Part shown: in pieces, positions 1 to 19,300 of the stretch
Layout: every line of letters begins with the position of its first letter
How positions within the stretch are numbered: the stretch's first letter is position 1
Assembly: GCA_028691615.1 (NCBI GenBank)
Contig: JAQUYX010000006.1
Location: 1-40,238 of the forward strand
Origin: Victivallaceae bacterium
GTDB lineage: Bacteria; Verrucomicrobiota; Lentisphaeria; Victivallales; Victivallaceae
Reading direction: 5' to 3'
Length of the DNA: 40,238 bases
Program-made: the position numbers and the translations under genes
Notes under the pieces: generated by a model
What the model saw: only the letters and a program-made list of their open reading frames with translations
The model's database searches: none
What the model was told of the DNA's origin: nothing

Positions 1-3000
1 CAAAGCCCACCCAGCCGTCGGAAACAAGCGTGCCCGCCGCCTTAACCGTACCGAGATCGCCGACATCGCCCTTCCCGCCGACGCTCTTGAAATTGGTCCA
101 ATCGTCGGAATTGTCGCGCCGCACCCGAAACGTCTGCGTCGGGCTCCATTCGGAAACATTGCCTCCTGCGTCCACCGAGCGAACCTGATAGAACCAATCT
201 CCCGTCGCCAAATCGCCGAACTGTTTCCCGCAAACAGTCAGAAATTCCCCGTCGCCGGACAGCGCCTCGGCATTGGCGTAGCGCAAATGATATCCGGCAA
301 TTCCGGAACCGCCCTCGTCGGCGGCGGCCGACCATTCCACAAAAATCCCGTTCCCGCGCCCATAATCTTTAAAATTCGCGGGCATCTCAGGTGCCGTCGT
401 GTCGATGTTGGATACGACATATTGCGCCGTCGCAGTATTTTGATTGTCGTCAACCGCCTGAAAATAGATCGTGGCATTTGCCGTGACCGTGACGCCGTCT
501 CCATAGTCAAGCCACTGCCCGTCATCAATCTTGTACTGCTTATGAAGCAGCGTCCCATTGTCCGCAAAGACCGCCGTGACCGTAACCGGCTGATTGGTGA
601 ACGCAGTCTGATCGGCAGAAATTGATTCAATCGTCGGCGCGGTCACATCCAGGACATTCAAGGTCTTGACGGTGCTCCACCCGGAATAATTTCCGCTCGC
701 ATCATAAGCCCGCAATTGGTATTCGTGCGCCCCGACCGCCAATTCCCCACAGCGATAGGACAATGCCGCAGTCCGAAAAACAGCATCCCCGATTTTCAGT
801 TCATACCCGGCCACCCCGACATTGTCCAACGCCGCGCGCCACGTGAACGTCGCAGTATATTGCCCCGCATTTTGAACCGCGGACGGCCCCCCATTGAGCT
901 CCGGCGCAATGACGTCGGGAGGCAGGATTCCGCTCACCGAGAGCACCGCACGCTGCTCCGCACCGGAGATGAGCTTCGAAAATTGATAGGTTGCTCCGTT
1001 CAGAACCACGTTTTCTCCTGCAGATAATGTCCGGGAAACCGTTCCAGAAGAGAGCGTAATCCGGCTCAGATCCCCCAAATTTGCCCCCCCGACCAGAGTG
1101 TATCCTCCGTTGGAATCCACCTCGGAAACGTCCACTGTCAGCGAAACGAGCGAATTCCATGTGCTGGTATTGACCCGAATCCCCTCCAGCGCCGCGTCCG
1201 ACAACACAATTTTCATTCCGGTGGAATACGAAGAAATAACGTCCGTGTACAATCGCGCATTGCCCTCGATCAGGATGGAGGAACCGGAAGACACCGCAAT
1301 TTTACCAATCACAAGGGCATTGCCGGAGAACCGCAGATTCCCCGTCCCGGTCGCATAGACTGCATACCGATCTTGCGCAAGCGCAAGCAGTTCAGTTTTG
1401 TTGGCCTCAAACGCAGCCAATTTCTGCAGGATGGTATCCTTGTCGTTGACGCCTTCGAAGCGGCCGGCAAAAATCGTTCCCGTAACGGTAATGTCAATCT
1501 TCTTACTGTAAATCGCATAGGCATTTGTTTCCGCGCCAACGGCAATCAACCCGGAGATTTCTCCGGAAACCACCAGCGCCTCCTGCGCATACAGTCCGTA
1601 GGCCGCTGAACCGGATGCGTTTCGACAGGAAAGGAAAATCGTTCCCGAAAGATCCCCGTTGACCTTCAGCACGTCTCCCGACGAAAACCCGTGCAGCGCT
1701 CCGTAGCGGTTGTATTTTGCGCCGGAAAAATCGAAGTGATTGTAAATCGTCCCGCCAAAATCACCGTTGATCGTCAAATCCCCGTCGGCCTTCACGCCGC
1801 AAGCCCGATTTGCCGCGGTATTCAATCCGTTCGTCGCCTCAAAAACAATGCTCTCAGCACCCGAAGCCGCCCCGACAAAGTTGAGCGTCAAATCATTGCC
1901 GACAATTCCCGCAGCGGTAATGCAGTCGGATACCTTCGAATCCAACGTGATATTCTCTCCGGCAAACGTTACCGTGCCATTCCAATGAGGCCCGTAGGAA
2001 TAGGTATCGACCCACGCGGCGTCGTCGCCAAACAGAATCGCAGCGTTCCGAATCGAAGAGCAGGAGAGCGTGTTATTTCCCGCCAGCGTCACGGATATCT
2101 CGTTGCCCATCAGTTGCAACGCCGCCGGATATGACGCGCGAATCGTTGCTCCGTCGGCAAGCACAACGTCCCCCTGAATTGACTGCGTACTTGTGAAAGT
2201 CCCGGAAATCGTTCTGGCGTAATCCACCGCGACCTCCGACGCAGCGGTCCACCCGGAAACATTGCCCGCCCCGTCAACCGCACGCATCCGCCAATACCAT
2301 GTCCCGGAGGGAAGCACAATGGAAATGTCATTCGAAATGGCTTCCTGCATCTGAGAATCTTCGAAATTGATATTTTTCGAATATTCAAGTTGATAGGAAA
2401 CTCCGGAAAAGTCCGCCACCGGTGTCCATGACAGCGCCAAGACGTTGTCGGTGAGCTTCTCCTCCAGCAGCTTGGGCGTCTCCGGCGGCATCTCGTCCGT
2501 ACCGGTGACGGACAGCACCAAGGTCGACTCCGCCGCCGCAAGCGACACAATTCTGCCGTCCGCCAGCGAAACCATGCCGCCCACCGTCAACGCCTTCCCC
2601 TCCCCGCCGGAATTCACCGTGATCGATGCACTTTGGATTTGGGAGAGATCCCCTTCGATCAGCCAATATTCCCCCCACGCGTTACTCACATCAACCTGAA
2701 TGACGGTATTTGCCGCCGGACCGGAACCGTCGGAAAAATAGAGCATCGAGTCTCCGCTCGGTTTCGCAAGATCAAACAGGAGGACATTCTGCGCCAGAAT
2801 CGCACCGGATTGCACCGCGACCCGTCCGCCGATCTTCCAATCACCGTCAACTTGTCCGCCGGAACTGACAAAGACTCGGCCTCCAAACTCAATGACCGAA
2901 TCCGTAGCCGTCCCGCCGGACAATACAATCTGACTGCCGCCGGAGCAAACCACGGTATCGTTCGCGTTCCCCTGAAGCCCCACATACTGCCGACCGCCGG

Positions 3001-5462: not shown

Positions 5463-6314
5463 TCAGATTGCGTCCTTTTTCCTTGCCCGCCGGCGGTAGT
5501 CGCTCGGCGAGACGCCCATGCTCTCCTTGAACACCCTGCTCAGGTGAAATTCATTGGCAAACCCGCAGCGGCCGGCAATCACCCGCAGCGGGAAATCCGT
5601 CCCATTGAGCAGATACGCCGCCTGGTCCAGACGATATTTGCGCAGCATCCGCGAAAAGGGCTGCCGGAATAATTTCTGGACGACCACGCTTGCGTAAGAG
5701 ACCGACAGATGCAATTCCGCGGCAAGATCCGGCAGTCCGATCGGATCTGCAAAATGGCGCAATAAATAATTATGAATCCGGATCGCCTTGCTGTCGGGAT
5801 CATCCATCAACAGTTTTTTGCGCTTGAGATGATGAATCAATCCGTCCGAGAACAGCTCCAACAAAGGCAAATACCGGTCGCCCTGAGACTCCGACCAGAC
5901 CGGAAGCCGGTCATATTCCAAGTAGAACTCCTCCGGCAGCGTCGCATCCTTCTCCGCCGGACACTTCCCGGCGGTTTTCCACGTTCCGGCATACAGCATC
6001 CCGTAATGGAAATTCCGGTCAATCAACGGCACGACCAATTGCACGACGCCTTTCCAGCAGCAGGACGAAAAGGGCTGCTGCCGTTCCAAACAGATTTGAT
6101 TCATCCGATAGCGGCAGTTGTCAATGCAACGGTCGCAAAATCCGCATCGGCACACCATGTTTTTTTGGTGCGATGCCCGTTCCAAAGTAAAGATCGATTG
6201 GCTCTGACGCCAGCGTAAAATTCCGTCCTGATCCACGATCGTCAATTTGAGGGAAATCGTCTCTTCCAGAAGAGCGATCTTCCGCTCCAACTGCTCATAT
6301 TCTCTTTGATCCAT
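5463..6314 (-). CDS. AraC family transcriptional regulator with cysteine-rich PocR-like sensor
   Basis: A one-component regulator of 283 residues. The C-terminal 100 residues form the double helix-turn-helix of the AraC family (LPDLAAELHLSVSYAS... and IAGRCGFANEFHLSRVFKE). The N-terminal part resembles the PocR sensory domain. It holds Cys55, Cys57, Cys60, Cys63, Cys67, Cys75, Cys85 and Cys86, and residues 57-67 have exact C-x2-C-x2-C-x3-C spacing, as in [4Fe-4S] ferredoxins. A possible short coiled coil precedes it (about residues 5-22). I chose the ATG at 6314 because upstream codons lie in AT-rich promoter DNA. A nine-codon frame (6343-6314) ends in TAATG overlapping this start and carries the nearest GGAAGGA. 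The gene is divergent from the 719-residue lyase-like gene, its likely target. The PocR assignment is by pattern only. Confidence 0.85.
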   Translation of the reverse strand: MDQREYEQLERKIALLEETISLKLTIVDQDGILRWRQSQSIFTLERASHQKNMVCRCGFCDRCIDNCRYRMNQICLERQQPFSSCCWKGVVQLVVPLIDRNFHYGMLYAGTWKTAGKCPAEKDATLPEEFYLEYDRLPVWSESQGDRYLPLLELFSDGLIHHLKRKKLLMDDPDSKAIRIHNYLLRHFADPIGLPDLAAELHLSVSYASVVVQKLFRQPFSRMLRKYRLDQAAYLLNGTDFPLRVIAGRCGFANEFHLSRVFKESMGVSPSDYRRRARKKDAI

Positions 6315-6431
6315 TAGGATATTCGCGTGCGGCGTCCTTCCATGATGCGGGGCACCCCCCTTTTTTTTAGAAAAAATATCTATATTTATCCAAAACAATA
6401 TCAATATATATGAAAAACGAAAAAATAGCCA

Positions 6432-6483: not shown

Positions 6484-8643
6484 ATGTCCGCAGCAAATGT
6501 GACTTCAAAAACCGCAACCGCAATCCTCAATTCCTGGCTTGACCGGCTCGACCAGTCCCTGACAACGCCCGCCGAGGCGCCGAACGTGCAATATTACGGA
6601 ACCGGCGAGTCCACACACTGGGCCATCCAAAGCAACTGGAATGTCGTCGGAGCGCTCACCGCACGGGGGGTGCTGCAAAAAGACCCGCGCAGCATCCATA
6701 CTGCGCTCGCGATCTTCCGCTATCTCCTCGGCACCCACCGGACCGGCGATCTTGTGGCGACCGACGGCAAACAGTGGCAGAATCACTGGATCAGCGTTTT
6801 GGGAATCGAGCGCGCGGCGTGCTGCCTCAAACTGTTGACCCCCTTTATGACCGCCGAAGATCAACTGCGGTTCAAAAATCTTCAGCTTGATATGGCCGAA
6901 TGGCTGCTCGATGAATACGATGTCGCCGCCGGACTGGATGGCCTCAGCGGCAGGAACCGCCCCGAGTCCAATCTCTGGAACGGCGCATTTCTTCATCGCA
7001 TGTGTCTGGATTATCCGGATCATCCCCGCTGTCATGAATTCCGCAAAAAGGGGACGAAACTGCTCCTCAACGGAATCTCTCTGGAACAGGATGCGAGCAG
7101 TTTATCGCGTTTCGATGGCATCGCATTGCAGGAATGGCATGTCGGAGCGAATTTCACCGAGAATTATTCGCTCGACCATCACGCCTATATGAATATCGGG
7201 TACAGTTTCATCTGCCTTTCCCACGTCGCCTTCACGCATTACTACTTCAAGCTCTCCGGCGCACAAGCGCCGGAAGCGCTTTATCTGCACGCGAAAGAGC
7301 TGTGGCAGACGGTGAAAAACTTTGTTTTTGCCGACGGCAGGCTTCTGCGAATCGGCGGAGACACCCGCGCAAGATACACCTACTGTCAGGTCTATGCACT
7401 AGTCGTGTTTCTTTTTGCCGGCGATTATTGGCAGGACGAGGAGGCCCGGAGTATGCAGTCCGGCTTGCTTGCGATTTTGGACAAGGAACAGCAAATCAAT
7501 CAGGACGGCAGTTTCTACGGAAAACGGCTTGCCAATATCCGGCAGCAGTCTTATTACTATTATACCCGTCTGGAATCCGATCCGGCGGTGGCGCTGGCGA
7601 ACGTGCTGACGATCTCCGATCGGCTGGGAATTTCCGATTCCGGAACCATCGGAGGAAAGCAAAATCCGCCCTGTTTCTGGACGGATGATTTTCATGCCGC
7701 GGCGCTCTTGAGAACCGGCAATAGCATCCGATCTTTTGTCGCCGACGGCGGACAGGGGCCGATGGCGCTCTGTCTTGCTGCGGATCGCAGCGACATGGCC
7801 GAATGGCAGAGCAATTTCTTTTTTAATTTCGGGCTGCACCGAAATCAGCATCACGTTCTCCGGCACAACATTCTGCGGGGCAAAGATCAATTTGTCGGCA
7901 CCTCCGTTACGGAATGGAGCGAAGAGGAACCGTATGGCGAAGGCGAAGAAGTGTACCGGGTGATTCGCAGTTATGCCGCGGTGGCGGGACTGCCGGACGG
8001 AAAAACGCTTCTGGTCTGCGAATATGTCATTGCGATCAAAGATGCCACGCTGGATTTCCGCCAGACGGTCAATTGGCAACTGCCCAACGATTGTTTCAAC
8101 GGCGGCAAGCGTTGGTATCGCGGCGGCAACAACTTCACCTGCACGACCGCGTCCCGTCCGGGGCAATCGCTTCTCATCCCCACGCATACGACCTTGCTGC
8201 ATGTCGACGGCACAACGCTCGAATCGATATACGGTGTGGAGCAGTTCTTCATTCGTCAGCGCGAAACCCCGGCGATCGTCGGGCAGTCGATGCGCGCACG
8301 AAAACTGCATTCTCTTTTCACCGACGAGATTTGTGGAGAATATCATCCGTCCGCCCGCGTGAAGAAAGGCGCATGTCTGGCGGACACTGCTTTTTGCATC
8401 ACTGCGGACACGCAGTGGGAGCAGTCAATCGCCAATGCGGGAAAAACACAACAACTCCCAACCGAAGGATTGCTGCGGGCGATGCTCTGTCGGGGCGTCA
8501 ATCGTGTGCAATATGGGTTCGCCGTCAACTTTGACACCGTCGCGCACAAAGAGTTCAACCGTACGCTCTCTCCGGGTGAAGCGATTCTGGTGGAAATATC
8601 TTCCTCCGAGTTGGAATCTCAGGCAATTGTTCACGGCCGGTGA
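6484..8643 (+). CDS. Putative cytoplasmic polysaccharide lyase / (alpha/alpha)6-toroid glycan enzyme
   Basis: 719 residues with an AAAGGA site before the ATG. The N-terminal half (about 1-400) is helix-rich with aromatic motifs (STHWAIQSNWN, QNHWISVLGIE, ESNLWNGAFLHR) like the alpha/alpha toroid of heparinase/alginate-lyase-type enzymes. NYSLDHHAY at residues 227-235 offers His232, His233 and Tyr235 as candidate catalytic residues. The C-terminal half is beta-rich (WSEEEPYGEGEEVYRVIRSY, NGGKRWYRGGNNF), fitting the beta-sandwich that follows the toroid in heparinase II/III-like lyases. There is no signal peptide or membrane segment, so it should act on imported oligosaccharides or unsaturated fragments in the cytoplasm. 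It is a single-gene unit, divergent from a cysteine-rich AraC regulator. I cannot name the family with certainty; a DUF with the same fold, or a glycoside hydrolase, is possible. Confidence 0.6.
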   Translation: MSAANVTSKTATAILNSWLDRLDQSLTTPAEAPNVQYYGTGESTHWAIQSNWNVVGALTARGVLQKDPRSIHTALAIFRYLLGTHRTGDLVATDGKQWQNHWISVLGIERAACCLKLLTPFMTAEDQLRFKNLQLDMAEWLLDEYDVAAGLDGLSGRNRPESNLWNGAFLHRMCLDYPDHPRCHEFRKKGTKLLLNGISLEQDASSLSRFDGIALQEWHVGANFTENYSLDHHAYMNIGYSFICLSHVAFTHYYFKLSGAQAPEALYLHAKELWQTVKNFVFADGRLLRIGGDTRARYTYCQVYALVVFLFAGDYWQDEEARSMQSGLLAILDKEQQINQDGSFYGKRLANIRQQSYYYYTRLESDPAVALANVLTISDRLGISDSGTIGGKQNPPCFWTDDFHAAALLRTGNSIRSFVADGGQGPMALCLAADRSDMAEWQSNFFFNFGLHRNQHHVLRHNILRGKDQFVGTSVTEWSEEEPYGEGEEVYRVIRSYAAVAGLPDGKTLLVCEYVIAIKDATLDFRQTVNWQLPNDCFNGGKRWYRGGNNFTCTTASRPGQSLLIPTHTTLLHVDGTTLESIYGVEQFFIRQRETPAIVGQSMRARKLHSLFTDEICGEYHPSARVKKGACLADTAFCITADTQWEQSIANAGKTQQLPTEGLLRAMLCRGVNRVQYGFAVNFDTVAHKEFNRTLSPGEAILVEISSSELESQAIVHGR

Positions 8644-8826: not shown

Positions 8827-9540
8827 TCAATCGGAAATGATTTCCGTAAAGGTACGACGCGTGGCGATTTTGAACAAGCCGTTGCGTTTGAATTTTCCTT
8901 TATCGACCAAAAGATAGCTCAATTCCGCTTTTTCCAGCACCTCTGTCAACAGCAGCGAATGATATTCGTGGTTGGTCGTCACGCGTTCCTCCGTTACACC
9001 GAACGCGGAAACAAACGCTTTGCGGATCGACAGCCGCTCCAGCTCCCGGATGGCAGCCTGCCCGAGAAAGGCATTCAGCTGCAAATCGTAACTTCCTCCC
9101 AGCGCGATCAGAACATAGTGCGCCGGAAAGCGATGAAAATTCTGGATCACCGACACCGAATTCGTCACGATCGTCAGATTGGAAAACGCCGAACCGATCA
9201 ACCGTTCTGCAAGGCATCCGACAGTGGTGGACGAGTCCAGATAGAGGATGTCCCCCTCGCAAATTCGCTCCAGTGCTTTTTGCGCAATCGCCTGTTTCCC
9301 GGCTCTGTTCCATTCGACGCGATCCAAAAACGGCGACGACATTTTGTCCGCCCGCGCAGGCGTCTCGATAAACGCCACACCGCCGTGCATCTTGCGCAGC
9401 ACATCCCGCGCCGCCAGCTTGGCAATATCCCGATGGATGGTGGCTGACGAGACGCCGAAATGCCGTCGCAATTCATTGACAGTGCAATATTTTCGGCTCT
9501 TCATAAAATCAATGATGGCAAATTCCCGGATCGTTTGCAT
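8827..9540 (-). CDS. DeoR family transcriptional regulator
   Basis: 237 residues, the usual DeoR length. An N-terminal winged helix (VNELRRHFGVSSATIHRDIAKL, about residues 18-40) is followed by LRKMHGGV, the standard link to the sugar-phosphate-sensing domain. That domain carries LDSSTTVGCLAERL and TIVTNSVSVIQNF, typical of the ISOCOT effector fold related to ribose-5-phosphate isomerase. DeoR proteins usually repress until a phosphorylated intermediate accumulates. The gene is divergent from the PfkB-led sugar operon, with 215 AT-rich bases between, so it is the probable repressor of that operon and of itself. B. subtilis IolR and E. coli YihW are DeoR-type relatives in similar contexts. Family is certain; ligand is unknown. 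Confidence 0.93.
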   Translation of the reverse strand: MQTIREFAIIDFMKSRKYCTVNELRRHFGVSSATIHRDIAKLAARDVLRKMHGGVAFIETPARADKMSSPFLDRVEWNRAGKQAIAQKALERICEGDILYLDSSTTVGCLAERLIGSAFSNLTIVTNSVSVIQNFHRFPAHYVLIALGGSYDLQLNAFLGQAAIRELERLSIRKAFVSAFGVTEERVTTNHEYHSLLLTEVLEKAELSYLLVDKGKFKRNGLFKIATRRTFTEIISD

Positions 9541-9616: not shown

Positions 9617-9657
9617 GAAATGAGAAATTATGAATCATTTATCATTTTGTTTCATTT
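9617..9657. promoter_or_regulatory. Cluster of ATGA/TCATTT half-sites in the divergent control region
   Basis: GAAATGA (9617) faces three TCATTT copies (9635, 9642 and 9652), giving several hyphenated inverted and direct repeats in 41 bases. Repeated half-sites are common for DeoR-family repressors that bind as tetramers. The region is AT-rich, so chance is a real alternative. Confidence 0.35.
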
Positions 9658-9685: not shown

Positions 9686-9713
9686 TTGTTTTTTTACGTC
9701 GCGCGGCTATACT
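9686..9713 (+). promoter_or_regulatory. Promoter of the seven-gene sugar operon
   Basis: TTGTTT (9686-9691), a 16-base spacer and TATACT (9708-9713) form a plausible sigma-70 promoter, with transcription expected to begin near 9720 and the first start codon at 9756. The candidate DeoR sites lie just upstream. Confidence 0.5.
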
Positions 9714-9755
9714 TCTTCTATAAAGCGACAATCGTCTTAAGGAATCTAAAAAAAA

Positions 9756-10664
9756 ATGGCATCCTTGAAACAATTTGATTTCGTCGGACTGGGCTTCGCC
9801 AGCAATGACGACCTGTCGGTTCTGCCTTGCATCCCGATTGACAGCAAGGTCAAGATCCTCCATCACATGGTACAAGGCGGCGGACCATCTGCCAATTCCA
9901 CCGTCGCCGCCGCACGGCTCGGTCTTTCCGCCGCATATCTGGGCGTCGTCGGCGACGATGCGCCGGGAACGGCGATTCTCGCCGATTTTCAAGCCGAACA
10001 CGTCGATATTTCCGGAATGACCGTCCGAAAAAACCGCACCTCCCCTGTCGCCTACTGCTGGATTGAGGAACCGACCGGGAAACGCAGTGTGGCATGGACG
10101 CGCGGCGATTTGGAGGAACTCGAAGCAGACGAAATCAATCTTGATTTTGTCCGCGGAGCAAAGATTCTGCACCTCGACGGCCACAATCCGAAAGCGGCGA
10201 TCGCGGCGGCGCGCGAGGCGAAAAAGCACGGTGCGCTGGTCAATTTTGACGCCGGAACCATCCGCGATGGCGTCGACGAGCTGCTGAAATTGGCGGATCT
10301 TCTAATCGCCTCCGAAGAGTTCGCCAGGCGCTACACCGGAGAGGACAAGCTGGAAAATGCACTTCACAAGCTCGGCACATTCGGTGCGCAAGTGACCGGA
10401 ATTACCATGGGGGAGCAAGGTTCCATGGCACTGGATGGACAGGTTGTTTTGCACTGCCCGGCTTTTCGCGTCCGGGCGGTCGACACCACTGGTGCGGGCG
10501 ACGTGTACCACACCGGGTTCGCGGTGCGGTATCTGGAAACGCACGACTTGATCGAGTGTATGCGTTTCGGCTCGGCAGTTTCGGCGCTCAAGTGTCTGAA
10601 AACGGGCGGCCGCACCGGGATTCCGGCGCGGCAGCAGGTAAATGATTTTCTGGCGACACATTAA
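9756..10664 (+). CDS. PfkB family sugar kinase, ketohexokinase/YihV-like
   Basis: 302 residues, normal for a ribokinase-fold kinase that phosphorylates a sugar with ATP. The N-terminal substrate signature is QGGGPSANSTVAAARLG and the C-terminal signature DTTGAGDVYHTGFA contains the catalytic base Asp249. After it comes ALKCLKTGGRTGIP, which closely resembles the same region of E. coli YihV (6-deoxy-6-sulfofructose kinase) and, more distantly, ketohexokinase. It does not look like standard IolC. It is the first gene of the operon, with a 25-base gap to the isomerase. In context it probably adds a phosphate to a ketose or keto-acid made by the neighbouring isomerases, priming it for the class II aldolase at the operon end. 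Family is firm; substrate is inferred. Confidence 0.9.
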   Translation: MASLKQFDFVGLGFASNDDLSVLPCIPIDSKVKILHHMVQGGGPSANSTVAAARLGLSAAYLGVVGDDAPGTAILADFQAEHVDISGMTVRKNRTSPVAYCWIEEPTGKRSVAWTRGDLEELEADEINLDFVRGAKILHLDGHNPKAAIAAAREAKKHGALVNFDAGTIRDGVDELLKLADLLIASEEFARRYTGEDKLENALHKLGTFGAQVTGITMGEQGSMALDGQVVLHCPAFRVRAVDTTGAGDVYHTGFAVRYLETHDLIECMRFGSAVSALKCLKTGGRTGIPARQQVNDFLATH

Positions 10665-10689
10665 TCTTGCTTAGAAAAGGACAGATTGG

Positions 10690-12063
10690 ATGACAAAGAA
10701 TTTCAAGATCGGGTATCTGCCGCTGACCAAGGCGAATTGGACCAATGATACGCTGGAAACGGCGCGCAAAAAAGCAAAATTATTTTTGCAGAACCTTCCC
10801 GGCGTGAAGGTCGTCGGCGGCGACCGCATGATCGACTTCGAGGACAAAGCCATCGCCGAGTTGGATTTTTTTGAGAAGGAACGGCCCGATCTGATCGTGG
10901 CGCATTTCATGACCTTTTCGCTCGGAGTGATCGTCCCAATGTTCGCTCAGCGTCTGAAAGTCCCGGTCGTCCTCTGGTCGATGAAAGAACCCGATCCGGC
11001 GGGAGGCCGGCTTCAGAACAACTCGTTCTGCGCGGCCAACATGAATTCGCATTTCCTGTACCGCATGCACGTTCCTTATTTCCACATTCACGCTGAAGTC
11101 GGTTCCCCTCAGGCCGACGCCGGACTGGAAAAAGCGATCCGTGTCACCCGTACGAACAACGTCCTGCAGCGAATGCGCATCGGGGTAATCGGCGGCCGCG
11201 TGCCGGGCTTCTTCACTTCCAGCTGCGATGAGATGCTTTTGCGCACCAAGATCGGGCCGGAGGTGAAATTCATTACAGAACACGAGGTGATTGAGGCGGC
11301 GCGAAGCCTTTCGGCAGCCGAGCTTTCCGAAGCGAAAAAAACCATTCTTTCCGACGCGTCCGTCCATCCGACCGACGGCCCCTGCGGCGAGCAGCTCGAT
11401 AAATCCGCAGCGCTTTATGCCGCCGTACTCAAGATGAGGGACAAATTCCTTGTCGATACCTTTGCCATGCGCTGTTGGCCGGAGTTCATTTCCAGCGATC
11501 TCTACGGAATCGCCGTATGCTCGACCATCGGACACCTGACCAACCACGGCTGTCTGACCGCCTGCGAGGGCGACGCATACGGCGCGGTCATGATGCGGAT
11601 CGAGCAGGAACTCACCGGAAAACTGCCGTTCTTCTGCGACATGATCGTCATGGAGGGAGAATCCGGCGTGGCATGGCACTGCGGCGCTGCTCCATGCAAA
11701 CTCTGCAAAGACGGCTTCCAGCCGCAACTCCGGCGCAGCGCCACCATCGAGGGCGGCGGTGTCAAAGGTGTTACCGACGAATTTCCGCTCAAACCCGGTC
11801 GGATCACGCTGGCGCGCCTCGGAGAAACGCGCGACGGCGAAAAATTCCGAATGCTGATCGCGACCGGAGAAGGACTGGACACCGATCTTTTTGTCCGTGG
11901 GAATCCGCTGAGAATCAAATTCGACGCAGGCTGTGACAAACTGCGTGAGGTCGTGATCGAACAGGGATGGGAACACCATTACGCGCTTTGTTACGGCGAT
12001 CTGGTCCCGGCACTGCTTGACCTCTGCCGAATTCTGGAAATCGAAGCTGTCGTTGTGCGCTGA
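10690..12063 (+). CDS. L-fucose/L-arabinose isomerase-like protein
   Basis: 457 residues, similar in size to arabinose isomerases and shorter than canonical FucI (about 590). The N-terminal third has a Rossmann-like pattern around DLIVAHFMTFSLG and VPVVLWSMKEP. Metal and catalytic candidates are Glu293 and Asp295 in TACEGDAYGAVMM, and His429/His430 in WEHHYALCYGDL near the C-terminus, matching the C-terminal histidine-GD signature of the FucI/AraA superfamily. CGAAPCKLC is an unusual cysteine cluster. Such enzymes interconvert aldoses and ketoses with a divalent metal. It follows the PfkB kinase and precedes iolB in the same operon. The family call is good, but many distant members of this superfamily have unknown substrates, so fucose or arabinose should not be assumed. 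Confidence 0.82.
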   Translation: MTKNFKIGYLPLTKANWTNDTLETARKKAKLFLQNLPGVKVVGGDRMIDFEDKAIAELDFFEKERPDLIVAHFMTFSLGVIVPMFAQRLKVPVVLWSMKEPDPAGGRLQNNSFCAANMNSHFLYRMHVPYFHIHAEVGSPQADAGLEKAIRVTRTNNVLQRMRIGVIGGRVPGFFTSSCDEMLLRTKIGPEVKFITEHEVIEAARSLSAAELSEAKKTILSDASVHPTDGPCGEQLDKSAALYAAVLKMRDKFLVDTFAMRCWPEFISSDLYGIAVCSTIGHLTNHGCLTACEGDAYGAVMMRIEQELTGKLPFFCDMIVMEGESGVAWHCGAAPCKLCKDGFQPQLRRSATIEGGGVKGVTDEFPLKPGRITLARLGETRDGEKFRMLIATGEGLDTDLFVRGNPLRIKFDAGCDKLREVVIEQGWEHHYALCYGDLVPALLDLCRILEIEAVVVR

Positions 12064-12086
12064 ACAGAAAAAAGGAGATTCGTATC

Positions 12087-12881
12087 ATGCCGAATTTGTT
12101 GATTCATCTCGATCCCCAACAGGGATATAACAATGTGTTTCAACTTGGCGAATACCAGATGAAGCTGACGCGCTTCGGAATCGTCCGACTCGCGAAGGGA
12201 AGTTCGCTTGAAGCCGACACCGGAGAAATGGAAGCCGCGCTGGTGATTCTCGGTGGGAAACTCTCAATCAAAGGCAACAACTTCGCATTCGACGAAGTCG
12301 GAAAACGCCGGAATGTTTTCGACGGAACTCCGCATACGATCTATCTGCCGCGGCGGACAAGTTACACTGTGACCGCGCTGACCGATGTCGATTACGCGCT
12401 CAATGAGTCCCCCGTTTCGCGCGATACGGCCAGGCCATGCGTAATTGCGCCGGAGCAGACGCGGTCATTTGCCATCGGGCGCGACAACTTCACCCGTGCC
12501 GCCACAGTCATGATCGACGAAAAATTCGACTCCGAACACTTCTACATCGGAGAAGGCATGATTCCGTCGGGCAATTGGTCCGGCTATCCGCCCCACCGCC
12601 ACGATTTTGACAATCTTCCGGACGAGATCGACATGGAGGAGACCTACTTCTACCGCTTCGATCCGGCGGGGGGATTCGGCATTCAGAAGGTCTATCAGCC
12701 GGACGGGAGCATCGACGAAACCTACACAGTCAAAAACAACGACACCGTCGCCATTGCAAAAGGGTTTCATCCACTCTGCGGCGCTCCCGGATACCGGATG
12801 TATTATCTCTGGACCATGACAGGCAAAAACAACCGCGGCTTAATCTCGCTCAAAGATCCCGCGCACAGCTGGGTGAAATAG
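12087..12881 (+). CDS. iolB: 5-deoxy-glucuronate isomerase family protein (IolB-like)
   Basis: 264 residues, the normal IolB length, with AAAGGAG before the ATG. IolB isomerises 5-deoxy-D-glucuronate to 2-deoxy-5-keto-D-gluconate in inositol breakdown. It is a bicupin, and strong family signatures are present: NVFDGTPHTIYLP in the first cupin, then PSGNWSGYPPHRHD (His170, His172 as metal ligands), EETYFYRF (Glu184/Glu185), GFGIQKVYQPDGSIDETY, and GFHPLCGAPGYRMYYLW with the last ligand His. The four-base gap to the FGGY kinase suggests translational coupling. None of the usual partners iolD, iolE or iolG is in the window, so a related 4- or 5-deoxyuronate could be the true substrate. Confidence 0.9.
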   Translation: MPNLLIHLDPQQGYNNVFQLGEYQMKLTRFGIVRLAKGSSLEADTGEMEAALVILGGKLSIKGNNFAFDEVGKRRNVFDGTPHTIYLPRRTSYTVTALTDVDYALNESPVSRDTARPCVIAPEQTRSFAIGRDNFTRAATVMIDEKFDSEHFYIGEGMIPSGNWSGYPPHRHDFDNLPDEIDMEETYFYRFDPAGGFGIQKVYQPDGSIDETYTVKNNDTVAIAKGFHPLCGAPGYRMYYLWTMTGKNNRGLISLKDPAHSWVK

Positions 12882-12885
12882 CCCC

Positions 12886-14394
12886 ATGAAAAACGACGGA
12901 ATCCTGCTGGGAATCGACTTCGGCACGGGGGGATGCAAAGCCTCCGCCGTGACCATTTCGGGTTCTTTGCTCGGCGATGTCAGCGTCGAATATCCGACCG
13001 AGTTCGCACATCCCGGCTGGGCGGAGCAGAATTGCGCCGACTGGTATGTCGCCATGTGCGATGCGTTGAAGAAACTGCGGGAAAACGGGGTCGACTTTGC
13101 CCGAGTCATCGCCGTGGCCTTCGATGGTTCGACGCACAACGCAGTCCTGCTCGACGGCGCGATGAAGCCGGTGCGCAAGACAATCATGTGGACCGACCAG
13201 CGCAGCACCGAGGAGGCTGCGGCTTTGTCCAGGGAGTACGGCAGAAGCATTTATGAGCGGGCATTTCAAATGCCGTCGCCGACATGGACGCTCCCGCAGC
13301 TGATCTGGTTGAAAAAACACGAGCCGGAAGCACTGGCGCGCACAAAGCATTTGCTGTTCGTCAAAGATTACGTCCGCTATCTGGTTTCCGGCGTGGCCGC
13401 AACGGACCACATCGAAGCGCAAGGAACGCTTTTTTACGACATGCACAACAAAACCTGGGCGGAGGATCTGGCCGCCCTTGCCGGATTGCGCGCCGCGATG
13501 CTGCCGGAATTGATCGCGCCGACCGACCGCTGCGGCAATGTGACCGCGCAAGCGGCGCAGGCAACCGGGATTCCCGAAGGCACACCGGTTATCTGCGGAA
13601 CCTCGGACTCCGCCGCCGAGGACTACGGCGCCGGCGCAGTCGAACCGGGGGACTGCATCATCAAACTTGCGACCGCCGGAAACGTCAACGTCATGACCGA
13701 TGCGCCGCATCCGTCGGAAAAAACCTTGACCTATTCCCATGTGATCCCCGGAATGTATTACAGCGTCGCGGCGACCAACGCCGCCGCGCTCTGCCAGCGC
13801 TGGTTCCGCGACGCGTTCTGCGAGGCGGAAAAAAGCGAGGCTGCACGCAGAAAGATCAATCCGTTTCTGCTGCTGGATAAACTTGCATCCGCGTCTTCTC
13901 CGGGGGCTGGAGGCGTCCTGTTCCACCCCTATTTGCAAGGCGAGCGGTCGCCGTACTGGGACGCAAAACTGCGGGCGAGTTTCACCGGAGTCTCCATTTC
14001 CTCGACCAAGGGGGATTTCCTTCGCGCGCTCTTTGAAGGCGTCGCCTATTCGTTGCGCGACTGCCGCACTGTACTGGATGAGATGCACTTGCCGGTCAAA
14101 CGGGCGTTTCTGATCGGCGGCGGCGCGCGGGGGGCGCTTTGGAGTGAAATCGTCTGCGGCGTTTTTAATCTGCCGCTGGCCGTACCGACGCCCGGAGACG
14201 CATCGTTCGGCGCGGCGCTGATCGCCGGAACCGGAATCGGAGTGTTTCCCGATGCGAAAACCGCCGTAAAACAGTGTTTGCGCATCGACAAAAATCTTGT
14301 TCCAAAGCAAGAGCTTGCGGCGTTTTACGCGCATGGATTTCAACGTTACCGGGCAATTCACGATGCACTTGCCGGGGTCTATTCCAATTTTTGA
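12886..14394 (+). CDS. FGGY family carbohydrate kinase, xylulokinase-like
   Basis: 502 residues, typical of FGGY kinases. The ATP-binding signature GIDFGTGGCKA opens the protein; HPGWAEQNCADWY and IMWTDQRS follow as in xylulokinase. The second domain holds FLIGGGARGALWSEIVCGV and the final APTP-like PTPGDASFGAALIAG. Where xylulokinases have SGQMHG, this protein has FDGSTHN (with a plausible catalytic Asp in AFDG), so its sugar may not be D-xylulose. The family phosphorylates ketoses and polyols with ATP. It starts four bases after the iolB-like stop without its own clear ribosome site. Operon context suggests it acts on the product of the FucI/AraA-like isomerase. A second kinase (PfkB) in the same operon implies either a bisphosphorylated intermediate or two converging branches. 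Confidence 0.9.
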   Translation: MKNDGILLGIDFGTGGCKASAVTISGSLLGDVSVEYPTEFAHPGWAEQNCADWYVAMCDALKKLRENGVDFARVIAVAFDGSTHNAVLLDGAMKPVRKTIMWTDQRSTEEAAALSREYGRSIYERAFQMPSPTWTLPQLIWLKKHEPEALARTKHLLFVKDYVRYLVSGVAATDHIEAQGTLFYDMHNKTWAEDLAALAGLRAAMLPELIAPTDRCGNVTAQAAQATGIPEGTPVICGTSDSAAEDYGAGAVEPGDCIIKLATAGNVNVMTDAPHPSEKTLTYSHVIPGMYYSVAATNAAALCQRWFRDAFCEAEKSEAARRKINPFLLLDKLASASSPGAGGVLFHPYLQGERSPYWDAKLRASFTGVSISSTKGDFLRALFEGVAYSLRDCRTVLDEMHLPVKRAFLIGGGARGALWSEIVCGVFNLPLAVPTPGDASFGAALIAGTGIGVFPDAKTAVKQCLRIDKNLVPKQELAAFYAHGFQRYRAIHDALAGVYSNF

Positions 14395-14405
14395 ACAATC
14401 AACAG

Positions 14406-14417
14406 GACGGCAGTGCC
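14406..14417 (+). repeat. GACGGCAGTGCC motif copy 1 (between FGGY and FAD genes)
   Basis: Exact GACGGCAGTGCC, sitting in the 50-base gap between two operon genes. The same 12-mer is found once more on the other strand at 17807-17818, and a one-base variant occurs twice elsewhere. Its core GGCASTGCC is a near-palindrome. Confidence 0.5.
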
Positions 14418-14444
14418 GGAGCACAACACAGCAAGGAGAAAAAA

Positions 14445-15899
14445 ATGCTGGTATCGAAAACAAGTTATATGTACGAGATGATCCGTACCGAGCTGACCGA
14501 CATCCTCGGCGCGGAGTTCGTTCGTACCGGAGAAGCCGACAAGTTCGGTCACTCAGTCGATTACTACTGGGTTCCGGAGATGTGGCACGACCGCGGCATG
14601 GAAACACCGAAGCCCGACTTCATCGTTCACCCGGGATCGACCGAGGAGGTCGCCAAAGTCGTCAAGCTCGCCAATCATTACAAGATTCCGGTCGTCCCGT
14701 GGGGCGGCGGTTCCGGTTCGCAAGGCGGCGCGCTGCCGATCTACGGCGGCATCATCGTCGACATGAAGCGCATGAACCACTTCATCAAGCTGGACAAAGA
14801 GTCGCTCACCGTCACCTGTCAGACCGGCATAATCGCCCGGCACCTGGAGTGGCAGTGCAATAAAGAAGGCTACTCCACCATGCATTTGCCCGCCTCGATC
14901 GCATGTGCGACAATCGGCGGCTTCCTCGCCCACCGCGGAACGGGAGTGCTTTCGACCAAATACGGCAAGATCGAAGACATGGTCATGAGCCTTGAAGTTG
15001 TCACCGGCACAGGCGAAATCATCCGCACGCTGCCGGTTCCCCGTCACGCCTCGGGGCCGGATCTTACCATGCTCTTTCTCGGCAGTGAAGGCACGTTCGG
15101 AATCATCACCGAAGTGACGCTGAAGCTCCAGCCGCAGCCGGAATCCCGTCAGTTCCGCGCCTATATCTTCAAAGATTTCCATACCGCGATGAGCGCGGGT
15201 GCGGAGCTGATGCGCAGCCGGCTTCAACCCTGCGCGGTGCGGCTGTACGACGAAGAGGAGACGATCCACCATGTCCGCAAAGTATTCGGCATGGAATTGG
15301 ATCAGGGAGCGTATCTGGTATTCGGCTTCGACGGGCGAACAGAGATTGTCGATCTTCAGATGAAATACGCTCGCGAAATCATGGAGAAGAAGTATAAAGG
15401 AAAGGATCTCGGCAGCAAAGGAGGCGAACTCTGGTGGGAGAATAAATACAAATTCTTCTATCCGCCGTTCATGTTCCACATACCGCAGGCGTTTGGCACG
15501 CTGGACACGGTCGCGACCTTCTCGAACATCGAAAACGTTTACTGGGCAATGAAAAAAGTCGTCAACGAGAACTTTCCCGCCGCTCGTTTCATCGGGCACT
15601 TTTCGCATTGGTACGAGTGGGGATGCATGCTCTATGCGCGCTTCATCTTCGAGGAAAAAGATGTGCCCAAGGACCCTCGCGAAGCGGTCGCTTTGTACAA
15701 CCGCGTCTGGGATATGGCCATCCGCGCGGCAATCGCCAACGGCGGAGTAATCAACGAACACCACGGCGTCGGTTTGAAGCTTGGACATTTCATGAAGGAG
15801 CTGTACGGCCCGGCAATGCCGGTTCTGGAGGGGATCAAACAGCAGCTCGATCCGAACAATATCATGAATCCCGGCAAGCTCGGTTTCAAAGGTCTTTGA
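14445..15899 (+). CDS. FAD-linked oxidase (GlcD / alkyl-DHAP synthase superfamily)
   Basis: 484 residues from the ATG at 14445, which follows GCAAGGAG at good spacing; the longer open frame upstream overlaps the FGGY gene and is rejected. The PCMH-type FAD domain runs from about residue 50 to 235: FIVHPGSTEEVAKVVKLAN, the pyrophosphate loop PWGGGSGSQGG, and MLFLGSEGTFGIITE. The C-terminal cap ends with NEHHGVGLKLGHF and DPNNIMNPGKLGF, standard for the FAD-oxidase C domain; the double His resembles alkyl-DHAP synthase as much as GlcD. Members oxidise 2-hydroxyacids such as glycolate or lactate. The next gene, 19 bases on, is a CCG-type Fe-S protein, the usual electron-accepting partner of GlcD-like subunits. 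Together they probably oxidise a hydroxyacid made in this pathway. Cytoplasmic or membrane-peripheral. Confidence 0.88.
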   Translation: MLVSKTSYMYEMIRTELTDILGAEFVRTGEADKFGHSVDYYWVPEMWHDRGMETPKPDFIVHPGSTEEVAKVVKLANHYKIPVVPWGGGSGSQGGALPIYGGIIVDMKRMNHFIKLDKESLTVTCQTGIIARHLEWQCNKEGYSTMHLPASIACATIGGFLAHRGTGVLSTKYGKIEDMVMSLEVVTGTGEIIRTLPVPRHASGPDLTMLFLGSEGTFGIITEVTLKLQPQPESRQFRAYIFKDFHTAMSAGAELMRSRLQPCAVRLYDEEETIHHVRKVFGMELDQGAYLVFGFDGRTEIVDLQMKYAREIMEKKYKGKDLGSKGGELWWENKYKFFYPPFMFHIPQAFGTLDTVATFSNIENVYWAMKKVVNENFPAARFIGHFSHWYEWGCMLYARFIFEEKDVPKDPREAVALYNRVWDMAIRAAIANGGVINEHHGVGLKLGHFMKELYGPAMPVLEGIKQQLDPNNIMNPGKLGFKGL

Positions 15900-15918
15900 G
15901 AGAAAGGAAAATTGCATC

Positions 15919-16956
15919 ATGCATATTGAAAATTATACCGACGCAACCCAAAACTGCCGTTTCTGTTTTATGTGCCGCCATCTCTCGGGGATCGGCAATG
16001 TGACCTTCACCGAGGCGGACACGCCGCGCGTCCGCGCGTCGATGATCTACGGCATCACACTGCACCCGGAGAAACTGTCGGAACCGGACTTCATCGACAC
16101 GATCTACCGTTCCGATCTTTCTGCGGCCTGCCGTTTTCACTGCGTGAGCCACTTCGACGAAAACGGCCTGAATCTGGCCGCGCGCGCCGACATCGTCGAG
16201 GCCGGGCTTGCGCCGGAGTACGTCAAAGTCATCGCAGAGGAGCTCAAACAATCCGCCAAGTGGAGCTCATCGGGACAAGGGAATGTCCTCTATTTTGAGG
16301 ACCGTTACACGTCGGAAGCGAAAACCGTCTCCGCCGCGTTCCGCAAAATCATGAAAAAAGCGCAAATCCCCTACATGACCATTCAGGGCGGTTGCATCGG
16401 CAAAGCGCTTGCCGTCCTCGGGTTCGGCAAGGATGCCAAAGAAGTGACCCAAGCCTTTGCGGCCGCAGTCAACGCAACTGGCGCAAAAACGCTGGTCGTC
16501 TCCAATCCGGCGGCTTACGATGCACTGACGAGCGACTTCCCGACGTTCGGGGCGAAGTTAAACGCCAAAGTCCAGCACACGAGCGAATACCTCGCGTCGC
16601 TGAAACTCAAAGTCACTCAAAAAGCGCCCGCCGTCTATTATCTGGAAAGCGATTTCCTTAAAAATTACGACGGCAATCTTCCCGGTCCGCGCGCATTGCT
16701 GAAGGCGATGGGGGCCAAAGTTCTGCCCTTCGGCACGAACAACGAGGAATCCTACACTTGCGCAGAAGGAGCGGTCGTGCTGCCGAAAATCGACGCCACG
16801 CTGGTCGAAAAGCTCGCTCATTATGTTGCCGCACGCGCCGATCATCCGGATGAGGACGTGATCGCGGTCGCTTCTCCCTACACCAAGATCCAGTTGGAAA
16901 AATACACCAAACTGCAGGTAAAGACGCTCGAAGAGCTGTTTGCCGCCGCGCTCTGA
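15919..16956 (+). CDS. Degenerate Fe-S / CCG-domain oxidoreductase subunit (GlcF/GlpC-like)
   Basis: 345 residues with AGAAAGGA before the ATG. The N-terminus looks like a two-cluster ferredoxin domain of GlcF/GlpC proteins that has lost one cluster. First motif: Cys13, Cys16 and Cys19, then Ser23. Second motif: Ser65 and Ser68, then Cys71 and Cys75. The retained set Cys13-16-19-75 is exactly the ligand set of one [4Fe-4S] cluster. The remaining protein aligns by eye with two CCG (HdrB-type) domains, but their cysteines are mostly gone: the usual CPTC positions read SNPAAY and ASPYT, and the CCG position reads YTCAEG. It lies between the FAD oxidase and the aldolase, probably passing electrons from FAD onward. 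The degeneration call is from motif spacing and needs an alignment. Confidence 0.75.
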   Translation: MHIENYTDATQNCRFCFMCRHLSGIGNVTFTEADTPRVRASMIYGITLHPEKLSEPDFIDTIYRSDLSAACRFHCVSHFDENGLNLAARADIVEAGLAPEYVKVIAEELKQSAKWSSSGQGNVLYFEDRYTSEAKTVSAAFRKIMKKAQIPYMTIQGGCIGKALAVLGFGKDAKEVTQAFAAAVNATGAKTLVVSNPAAYDALTSDFPTFGAKLNAKVQHTSEYLASLKLKVTQKAPAVYYLESDFLKNYDGNLPGPRALLKAMGAKVLPFGTNNEESYTCAEGAVVLPKIDATLVEKLAHYVAARADHPDEDVIAVASPYTKIQLEKYTKLQVKTLEELFAAAL

Positions 16957-16970
16957 AAAAGGATTGACTC

Positions 16971-17795
16971 ATGTCGCTTGTCACGATGAACGAAATTCTG
17001 CTTCCCGCGCGCCGGAACGCACGCGCGGTCGGAGCGTTCAATGTCGCAAACTACGAAACCGCTCTTGCCGTCATGCTGGCCGCGGAACAGGAAAAATCCC
17101 CGGTCGTCATCCAGCTTTACATGCGGCTGTTCGACTCGGAGAAGGCCTCCGATCTGGCCGGAATGCTTCTGCGTCTGGCGCGCCGCTCGTCGCAGCCGAT
17201 CGCGCTGCACCTCGACCACGGAGCGAACTTGCGTCAGGTGATGGTGGCGCTGCGCGCCGGGTACACCTCGGTGATGCTGGACGGGTCGCGTCTGCCGTTC
17301 GAGGAAAATGTGAAGATCACGAAACTCGCCGTGGAGCTGGCGCACGCCGCCGGAGCCAGTACCGAGGGGGAAATCGGCCATGTGGCACAGGGCGACAAAA
17401 CAGCGTTGACCGAGGTAAACGAGGCGGTGGAATTTGCGAAAGCAACGCAGGTCGATGCGCTGGCAATTTCGATCGGAACGGCGCACGGGTATTATCAAGC
17501 GACGCCGAAAATCGATGTGGAGCGTTGCCGCTCAATCGGAGAGGCATTGCCAAAACTGCCGCTGGTGCTGCACGGCGGTTCGGGAACTCCGCTGGAGGAT
17601 GTGCGAAAAGTGATCCGCGCCGGAGTATCCAAGGTGAATATTGCCACCGAGTTTCTAGACACTTATCTGAAAGCCACCCGGCACGAATTGAACACGCTGG
17701 ACGGAAAGTTTCTGCCGGTGGACAAGTTCTATGATCCGGTTGTCGACGCTTGCGCGGCTCATGCGGCGCGTCTGATCCGCTTCTTCGCGGACTGA
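16971..17795 (+). CDS. Class II fructose-bisphosphate aldolase family protein (GatY/IolJ type)
   Basis: 274 residues, normal for the family, which cleaves ketose (bis)phosphates to DHAP and an aldehyde using zinc. HLDHG gives Asp82 (catalytic) and His83 (zinc); EGEIGH, GTAHGYYQ and LHGGSGTP supply the other metal and phosphate-binding residues. NIATEFLDTYL near the end is also standard. It is the last gene of the operon, 14 bases after the Fe-S gene, and may yield DHAP plus an aldehyde from the doubly processed substrate. With IolB and a PfkB kinase in the same operon, an IolJ-like role (DHAP plus malonate semialdehyde) is one option; tagatose- or other ketose-bisphosphate cleavage is another. 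Confidence 0.92.
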   Translation: MSLVTMNEILLPARRNARAVGAFNVANYETALAVMLAAEQEKSPVVIQLYMRLFDSEKASDLAGMLLRLARRSSQPIALHLDHGANLRQVMVALRAGYTSVMLDGSRLPFEENVKITKLAVELAHAAGASTEGEIGHVAQGDKTALTEVNEAVEFAKATQVDALAISIGTAHGYYQATPKIDVERCRSIGEALPKLPLVLHGGSGTPLEDVRKVIRAGVSKVNIATEFLDTYLKATRHELNTLDGKFLPVDKFYDPVVDACAAHAARLIRFFAD

Positions 17796-17885: not shown

Positions 17886-19124
17886 TTAAGCAACATAGCC
17901 GTCGGGCTGTTCCTTTTCTCTGTCGCTCCGGCATTTTCGTGCGGCCAGATGGAAAAACGGAATCGCCGCAAGTTGCATTCCACAGGAAAGTGCCGCCATC
18001 GTGAAAATGGAAATCGGATAAAGCACCCCCATTGCCCATGATCCGAAGAAAAAGGCGATGCCAAAGCCGGTCTGAAACACCCCGTACCCGGTGGAGCGTT
18101 TTTCCTTCGAAATAATCGTGACCACCGCCGCCTTCAAAATGGACTCCTGCGCCCCCATCCCAATCCCCCAGAGCGCCACGCCGATCCAGAGCCATCCGGA
18201 ACTTGGCACGGCGAAAACCAGCCACGCAAACGGTGCGGCAAGCAGAGTGGAAAGCATCAGGACATTCAATCCGAAGCGGTCGTACAGCCACCCGAAGAAC
18301 AGCGCGGCAAAGGCATCCACCAGCATTGCCGCGGCATAAATCAGCGGAATGGCCGTTTCGGAAATCAGGCCGGTCTTCATCGCATGCATGGTAATCAAAG
18401 GAAAGCCGATGAAGCCGAAGGCGAAAAAGCAAATTCCAGCCATGTAATAGAGAAACGCCGAATTTTTCCCGATAGACCCTTCGCTTGATTTTGTTTCCGG
18501 TTCGAAATTTTCCGGGTTCGGAAACTTCCGTCTGGCGTAAAACAAAAGAAAAATGGTAATCAAAGCCGGGATTCCCAGAATTGCCAGACATAGTTTATAA
18601 GCCCCAAAGAGATCGCCTCCCCGCTTCCACGTCAGCACCCCGAAAAGCACCATCGGACCGACAAATGCCCCGATCTGGTCGAGCAGCTCCTGAATGGCGA
18701 AACTCTTTCCCGCGCCATATTCGGAGGCCGCGAACGACAAAAGCGTGTCCTTGGCCGGCTTCTTGACCGCCTTGCCGATGCGCTGAATCACGATCAACGC
18801 ACAGGCCCAGATCCAACCGCCCTGCGGCACCAGAGCCAGCAGGGGAATGGCGATACAATCGACAAGATACCCGGCAATGGTAATCAGCCAGTAATTTCTG
18901 GTTTTGTCGGCCAGAACGCCCGTGACAATCCGCAGCGAATAGCCGATCAAACCACCCAGCCCGGTGATAAATCCAATCATTCCCGCAGATGCCCCGGCCA
19001 AGCTCAGATATGCGCCGATAATGCTGGCGGCCCCCTCATGGGTCATATCCGAAAACATGCTGACCACACCCATCAGGACAATGAATGCGAAAACGGCACT
19101 TTTTCTGCTGTCGATCCTCTTCAT
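17886..19124 (-). CDS. MFS transporter
   Basis: 412 residues from the ATG at 19124, preceded by GGAGAAG; the longer frame would begin upstream of the promoter. About twelve hydrophobic segments are visible. The cytoplasmic loop motif GVLADKTRNYW between helices 2 and 3, and GWLYDRFGLN in the second half, match the MFS signature. SDMTHEGA in the first helix region and FAIQELLDQIGAFVGP are seen in a poorly studied MFS branch. It is convergent with the sugar operon and codirectional with the GH4 gene but has its own strong promoter. Likely substrate: a sugar or organic acid from one of those neighbours. Nothing in the sequence fixes which. Confidence 0.88.
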   Translation of the reverse strand: MKRIDSRKSAVFAFIVLMGVVSMFSDMTHEGAASIIGAYLSLAGASAGMIGFITGLGGLIGYSLRIVTGVLADKTRNYWLITIAGYLVDCIAIPLLALVPQGGWIWACALIVIQRIGKAVKKPAKDTLLSFAASEYGAGKSFAIQELLDQIGAFVGPMVLFGVLTWKRGGDLFGAYKLCLAILGIPALITIFLLFYARRKFPNPENFEPETKSSEGSIGKNSAFLYYMAGICFFAFGFIGFPLITMHAMKTGLISETAIPLIYAAAMLVDAFAALFFGWLYDRFGLNVLMLSTLLAAPFAWLVFAVPSSGWLWIGVALWGIGMGAQESILKAAVVTIISKEKRSTGYGVFQTGFGIAFFFGSWAMGVLYPISIFTMAALSCGMQLAAIPFFHLAARKCRSDREKEQPDGYVA

Positions 19125-19149
19125 CTTCTCCGCTCCCCACAATTCCATC

Positions 19150-19178
19150 AATATAGCAGAAAAACTACTTTTTTTCAA
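19150..19178 (-). promoter_or_regulatory. Sigma-70 promoter of the MFS gene
   Basis: On the minus strand TTGAAA (19178-19173), a 17-base spacer and TATATT (19155-19150) form a near-consensus promoter. The expected transcript start leaves a leader of only about 20 bases before the ATG at 19124. Confidence 0.65.
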
Positions 19179-19300
19179 CCCACAGCGGACGATCGGCGGA
19201 AAAGATACAGGGGGGCCGTTTCTGTTTGACATATTTTCGTTTACATGGCATTTTAAAAGATAATTGCGAAGCTCACAAGCGCATGTTCTGGAGAGGGAAA

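Follow-up and report, generated by a model that had tools for sequence, protein, structure and literature searches.

Positions 1 to 40,238 of contig JAQUYX010000006.1 of a Victivallaceae bacterium (assembly GCA_028691615.1; this whole stretch is hereafter called the window) carry, at 9756-17795 on the plus strand, seven same-strand genes which encode, in order, a PfkB-family kinase, an isomerase of the AraA/FucI type, an IolB-type isomerase, an FGGY-family kinase, a flavin adenine dinucleotide (FAD) protein, an iron-sulfur (Fe-S) protein and a class II aldolase. That these genes form a conserved, singly regulated and uncharacterised catabolic operon is well supported. As to its function, we tentatively favour, at somewhat less than an even chance, a single DeoR-repressed catabolic operon with two enzyme modules that act on a sugar set free from glycans of the galactoside type; its division into two modules has moderate support. 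The combined parts match no pathway known to us. The genes and sites in question are as follows.

8827-9540, minus strand: DeoR-family repressor (PF00455 and PF08220), divergent from the block; its orthologue adjoins the PfkB gene in most loci.
9621-9645, no strand: operator-like inverted repeat TGAGAAA-N10-TTTATCAT; a single copy in the genome; relatives have comparable repeats between their DeoR and PfkB genes.
9686-9713, plus strand: putative promoter hexamers TTGTTT-16-TATACT, as read from the sequence.
9756-10664, plus strand: PfkB-family sugar kinase (PF00294, 167 bits).
10690-12063, plus strand: AraA/FucI-superfamily aldose-ketose isomerase, a facultative member (PF02952, 32.5 bits).
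12087-12881, plus strand: IolB-type isomerase of the 5-deoxyglucuronate isomerase family (PF04962, 243 bits; TIGR04378 above cut-off).
12886-14394, plus strand: FGGY-family sugar kinase, xylulokinase-like (TIGR01312, 362 of 380 bits).
14445-15899, plus strand: FAD protein of the alkyl-dihydroxyacetone-phosphate (alkyl-DHAP) synthase type; best solved relatives 2uuu and 4bby.
15919-16956, plus strand: divergent CCG-type Fe-S electron carrier with CxxCxxC plus Cys75 (PF02754 in orthologues; predicted structure).
16971-17795, plus strand: class II ketose-phosphate aldolase with Arg52 present and the bisphosphate Arg absent (PF01116, 271 bits).
17886-19232, minus strand: major facilitator superfamily transporter (PF07690), possibly linked, between the operon and the next gene.
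19494 to about 20891, minus strand: alpha-galactosidase-like glycosidase of glycoside hydrolase family 4 (GH4; PF02056/PF11975), likely linked.

All seven families that the original prediction had placed at 9686-17795 were found there. The block itself stands, but not its first base, because 9686 falls on the −35-like hexamer TTGTTT and the first gene starts at 9756. The successive genes are separated by 25, 23, 4, 50, 19 and 14 bp; for the FAD gene, the start at 14445, which has an AGGAG site upstream, is preferred to that at 14274 in the list of open reading frames (ORFs). The divergent DeoR gene is part of the operon unit, and from its position its product is predicted to be the operon's dedicated repressor, sharing a promoter region with the block. 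Repeats resembling TGAGAAA...TTTCTCA are also present between DeoR and PfkB in relatives. The pattern TGAGAAAN{7,11}TTTMTCAT gave one match in the bacterium's own genome, at 9621-9645 of the window, against none for the reversed control pattern, and a regulon search of the same genome found no further genes with it. Since the pattern had been derived by eye from the same DeoR/PfkB regions, its uniqueness supports a local regulator but falls short of proof. The window hexamers were too weak to register in a consensus promoter scan; relatives carry TTGACA-17-TATTCT at the equivalent position. Tight same-strand order, one operator and conserved co-occurrence thus support the earlier view of one co-transcribed, pathway-like set.

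The genome assembly comprises 3.1 Mb in 282 contigs, and the closest relatives that the named collection contains are Victivallales. With the isomerase as query, 30 loci were recovered in GTDB contigs, the named taxa being Lentisphaerae, Victivallales, Oligosphaeraceae, Kiritimatiellae and other Verrucomicrobia. Matches to the FAD protein at E ≤ 1e-100 came from 48 of the phylum's 388 genomes and from 29 of the 198 genera. Six genes (PfkB, IolB, FGGY, FAD, Fe-S and aldolase) were taken as the core. The co-occurrence in other genomes by which the original prediction was to be judged was indeed found: at least four of the six lie in 49 fetched loci (loci, not independent genomes, as some genomes are present in two collections), among which 38 also have the isomerase, 12 have NagA and/or NagB, and 11 have a GH2 or GH4 gene. 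The carriers include many gut, rumen and aquatic or sediment Verrucomicrobiota, with dozens of assemblies of Lentisphaeria and Kiritimatiellae, and gene order is largely kept. Because the same genes in the same order are met again across many independent assemblies, and the catalytic residues are invariant or nearly so in orthologues, the block is far beyond chance. Nor is it an assembly artefact, since one carrier genome (G083) is a single contig and another (G128) consists of two. In the literature searched, no characterised operon with the same gene order was found.

Membership of the first isomerase in the AraA/FucI superfamily is established by its metal ligands E293, D317 and H330, invariant in 62 of 62 sequences, and by its fold: in the predicted model (mean pLDDT 91) this comes closest to L-arabinose isomerase (TM 0.84), ahead of D-arabinose and L-fucose isomerase (0.75-0.78). 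The FucI/AraA-like assignment made at the outset therefore holds for the superfamily, but the fold is closer to L-arabinose isomerase than to FucI and the enzyme is dispensable to the operon. It is absent from the operon in L140, L143, L149-L152 and L157; the genomes of L149-L151 have a homologue, 43-45% identical, at another site. A second isomerase clade (38-41% identity; L066, L067, L069-L071) adjoins sugar-phosphate isomerase/epimerase-like and Gfo/Idh genes, not the operon.

Sulfoglycolysis was considered first because the best matches of three enzymes are sulfoglycolytic. The best model for the isomerase is SftI, and its identity to the probable SqvD proteins from Zymomonas and Chlorohelix is 28-30%; the nearest PDB relative of PfkB is sulfofructose kinase (124 bits, against 99 for ribokinase); and the best solved match of the aldolase is 8q57, which we take to be a SqiA aldolase. 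A hybrid of the two sulfoglycolytic Embden-Meyerhof-Parnas routes, sulfo-EMP and sulfo-EMP2, would have precedent in described clusters that mix their enzymes (PMC9594981). However, the isomerase scores 238 bits on the SftI model NF048012, whose cut-off is 700. The residues of sulfofructose kinase that contact the sulfonate are presumably Lys27, Asn109 and Arg138; in PfkB the second is replaced by Ala in 33 of 35 sequences and the third by Asp in 35 of 35, the position of Lys27 being ambiguous, so that two of the three are missing. Neither a sulfoquinovosidase, nor a sulfolactaldehyde enzyme, nor a sulfonate exporter was recognised in the loci read, and IolB, FGGY and the FAD/Fe-S pair would be left without a role. 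We consider this hybrid, or any other sulfo-hexose route, improbable, and the sulfosugar option offered by the original prediction fails at the SftI cut-off and at the kinase residues. Separately, consecutive genes at 128-3457 of the Zymomonas plasmid locus pZZM402 (L104) encode a class II aldolase near 8q57, an aldose epimerase and an SqvD-like isomerase, with an SSADH-type gene close by; this row is possibly a plasmid sulfoglycolysis cluster.

IolB passes the curated cut-off of TIGR04378 (230.5 bits; cut-off 205) and conserves the HxH motif, Glu and His, and its alignment with IolB of complete iol clusters spans the active-site core. The suggested IolB-like isomerisation of an acidic sugar is thereby strengthened. 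Given a result with E. coli extracts (PMC3578941), an acidic hexose is a reasonable substrate for the IolB-like enzyme. Three families of the lower inositol pathway (IolB, PfkB as IolC, and the aldolase as IolJ) stand together here, a DeoR regulator occurs in an iol cluster too, and Gfo/Idh and TIM-barrel genes lie 3' of the operon in some relatives, all as would be expected of a degenerate or variant inositol pathway whose ring cleavage is encoded elsewhere. Against this, IolD was above the TIGR04377 cut-off in 0 of 32 operon genomes, as compared with 3 of 14 control genomes; PfkB is only 24% identical to IolC from a complete iol cluster; and glycosidases lie within the operon. The variant is thus highly improbable. 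Canonical inositol catabolism, the cyclitol option of the original prediction, is rejected since it requires IolD, and PfkB reaches 115 bits on the IolC model TIGR04382 (cut-off 300), less than on the ribokinase model.

In the aldolase, the class II metal ligands, Arg52 and Asp251 are each present in 25 of 25 sequences. Aldolases of fructose or tagatose bisphosphate bind the 6-phosphate of the substrate through the Arg of a DPRKF motif and a Ser. Here that Arg is replaced by Asp251 and a Tyr-x-Arg52 motif is present, and assignment as a bisphosphate aldolase was rejected. Elsewhere, position 52 is Arg in IolJ of a complete iol cluster (DRL) and in an SqiA-like protein of Zymomonas (QRV), Lys in 8q57, and Gly in KbaY. 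The aldolase is 39% identical to the Zymomonas protein, with which it has a basic residue 52 in common, and is equally close to IolJ and KbaY. The alignment suggests that Arg52 may contact an acid group at the far end of the substrate. Because PfkB, IolB and the Arg52 aldolase resemble the lower inositol branch, DHAP and a three-carbon (C3) semialdehyde are the favoured products; by this analogy the aldolase would most likely cleave a carboxylate-ended ketose-1-phosphate. The proposal that a kinase and an aldolase together yield DHAP has also gained strength.

The best alignments of the FAD protein are to alkyl-DHAP synthase (AGPS; 192 and 171 bits), as against 139 bits for D-lactate dehydrogenase. 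The protein keeps the AGPS residues R419, Y578, H616 and H617 in 27-28 of 28 sequences, R419 and Y578 being, by alignment, those altered in structures 4bc7 and 4bca. Judged by these aligned residues, it is an AGPS-type flavoprotein. Glycolate oxidase/D-lactate dehydrogenase GlcD was rejected (205 bits on TIGR00387; cut-off 568). In its Fe-S partner the CxxCxxC motif is invariant. The window copy has no Pfam match, its score lying below the cut-off, but PF02754 was detected in 21 of 36 orthologues at E ≤ 1 (best 2.5e-5), and the predicted structure (pLDDT 95) gave Foldseek matches to EtfD, LutA and HdrB. It is therefore a divergent HdrB/LutA-like electron carrier of the CCG type. With such a flavoprotein and such a partner, the pair is not the plain hydroxyacid (lactate or glycolate) oxidase first supposed. 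The deoxyhexose route ending in lactate, proposed along with it, found no positive support: when the loci were read by eye, neither a dehydrogenase nor a reductase for lactaldehyde was recognised.

The division into two modules follows from how the families are grouped elsewhere. In iol clusters IolB adjoins IolC, sometimes with IolJ in the same cluster. FGGY, FAD protein and a remote Fe-S homologue are grouped on a Mesorhizobium plasmid (42, 46 and 21% identity), FGGY adjoins an AGPS-type FAD protein on plasmids of Enterococcus gilvus and Priestia, and the E. coli ygc cluster holds both, with ygcW and a transporter gene between ygcU and ygcE. On the named plasmids only parts of the operon were found, the whole on none. 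Such standalone FGGY-FAD groups in Mesorhizobium and on Firmicutes plasmids would also suit two separate short pathways for two sugars of one glycan, in which no compound meets all seven enzymes, as would the isomerase gene standing apart with NagA and aldolase in L016/L017 and the set being split over two contigs in genomes G283 and G196. This alternative is nevertheless unlikely, as the six core genes stand together in most loci and one operator serves all.

The genes around the operon point to a glycan source. GH4 genes lie inside the operon in L063, L087, L090-L092, L096 and L097, and adjoin the isomerase gene in L064 and L068. The window GH4, about 2 kb downstream of the operon, is probably part of the operon unit, and the genome has only one other GH4 gene; in genomes G165 and G031, which likewise have two, one of the pair is at most a few kb away from the operon. 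As several of the fourteen genomes surveyed had been chosen for a GH4 already seen, no rate of linkage is claimed. A GH2 of galactosidase or glucuronidase type is found in or beside the operon in L030, L081, L086, L087 and L097. A short GH2 was rejected as a beta-glucuronidase, since the NxK motif by which those enzymes bind the carboxylate was absent by eye.

These glycosidases could also serve a neutral route, in which galactose freed by GH4 or GH2 is converted to tagatose by the AraA-type isomerase, phosphorylated at C1 and cleaved to DHAP and glyceraldehyde, the other genes salvaging the glyceraldehyde. The L-arabinose isomerase family, to which the isomerase is nearest in fold, is known to convert galactose to tagatose; the GH4 of L087 clears the cut-off for the alpha-galactosidase subfamily and shares 46% identity with E. 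coli MelA, and the GH2 of L086 comes near beta-galactosidase GalA (766 of 900 bits). Yet all but one of 29 operon genomes encode galactokinase, several operons lack the isomerase, and neither IolB nor Arg52 would be explained. The neutral route is thus rather unlikely.

We return to the galactoside-fed, two-module operon. In module A (IolB, PfkB and aldolase, to which the AraA-type isomerase would add an optional entry step), an aldose with an acidic far end would be isomerised to a ketose, the ketose phosphorylated at C1, and the ketose-1-phosphate cleaved to DHAP and a C3 semialdehyde acid, as IolB, IolC and IolJ end inositol catabolism. In module B, FGGY would phosphorylate a sugar or polyol, and the AGPS-type flavin would oxidise this phosphate and pass electrons to the CCG Fe-S partner. 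The acidic substrate, the order of steps, the galactoside origin and the direction of electron flow are what we infer from gene content and residues. The substrate is probably a galactoside-derived sugar or sugar acid, and an acid-ended galacto-type sugar fits most of the facts, though not all. A more specific form, which we regard as possible but doubtful, is an undescribed Embden-Meyerhof-like route for acidic hexoses, joining oxidation of the FGGY-made phosphate by the flavoprotein/CCG pair to an IolB/PfkB/Arg52-aldolase branch that yields DHAP and the C3 semialdehyde acid; with galacturonate, for example, tagaturonate-1-phosphate would give tartronate semialdehyde.

Several points weigh against the two-module operon as described. 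The glycosidases suggest neutral galactose and IolB and Arg52 an acid, signals that at face value are compatible only with a galacturonide or a modified galactose. Acid binding by Arg52 is itself suggested by alignment. The uronate isomerase UxaC is present in 26 of 29 operon genomes and GalK in 28 of 29, so the operon is not strictly needed for galacturonate or galactose, and the idea that it stands in for the Leloir route or that of hexuronate isomerase was rejected. No gene using the C3 product was recognised within the operon. Finally, NagB and NagA lie 3' of the aldolase in L005, L012, L031, L140-L143 and L156 (in L012, NagA passes with 259 against a cut-off of 226 and NagB fails with 138 against 237), and the two-module operon does not account for them.

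Elsewhere in the window, a reading frame longer than 1,700 residues (1 to about 5190, minus strand) runs past the window start and, being open-ended, is missing from the ORF list; by eye it starts papain-like (C39-type) and continues with surface-protein-type repeats. An AraC regulator with a weak PocR-type sensor domain lies at 5463-6404 (minus strand), and two large proteins, of 719 residues at 6484-8643 and 1216 residues at 36467-40117 (both plus strand), have no Pfam or NCBIfam match.

The operon is found widely in a phylum whose gut, rumen and sediment bacteria are mostly uncultured, and it would represent a peripheral pathway missing from current maps. It places AGPS-type flavoproteins that are paired with FGGY kinases in a catabolic setting, and since the same pairing occurs in E. 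coli as the uncharacterised ygcE/ygcU, work on it bears on a gap in a model organism. Arg52 may offer a readable rule that sorts class II aldolases by the far end of the substrate, phosphate or other acid.

Among known systems, the lower myo-inositol branch (IolB, IolC, IolJ) shares the isomerase, kinase and class II aldolase families, an IolB over the cut-off and the DRL-type arginine, but the operon genomes are without IolD, the kinase is not IolC by score, and four additional genes are present. Sulfo-EMP and sulfo-EMP2 (SqvD/SftI, sulfofructose kinase, SqiA) share the isomerase superfamily, the kinase and aldolase families and the Arg/Lys position of the aldolase, but the isomerase of the block lies far below the family cut-off, its kinase is without the sulfonate residues, and no glycosidase, reductase or exporter belonging to those routes was recognised. 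The L-fucose and L-arabinose operons likewise combine an AraA/FucI-superfamily isomerase with an FGGY kinase, both remote from those of the block, which is without a FucA/AraD-type aldolase or epimerase. Alkyl-DHAP synthase has the four aligned residues in common with the FAD protein; in contrast, the latter has a catabolic setting, an Fe-S partner of its own and an operon devoid of lipid genes. In E. coli ygcE/ygcU, an FGGY kinase and an AGPS-type FAD dehydrogenase are clustered with ETF-like and 4Fe-4S genes, but identities are 29% and 33%, and IolB, PfkB, the aldolase and the AraA-type isomerase are absent in the stretch read.

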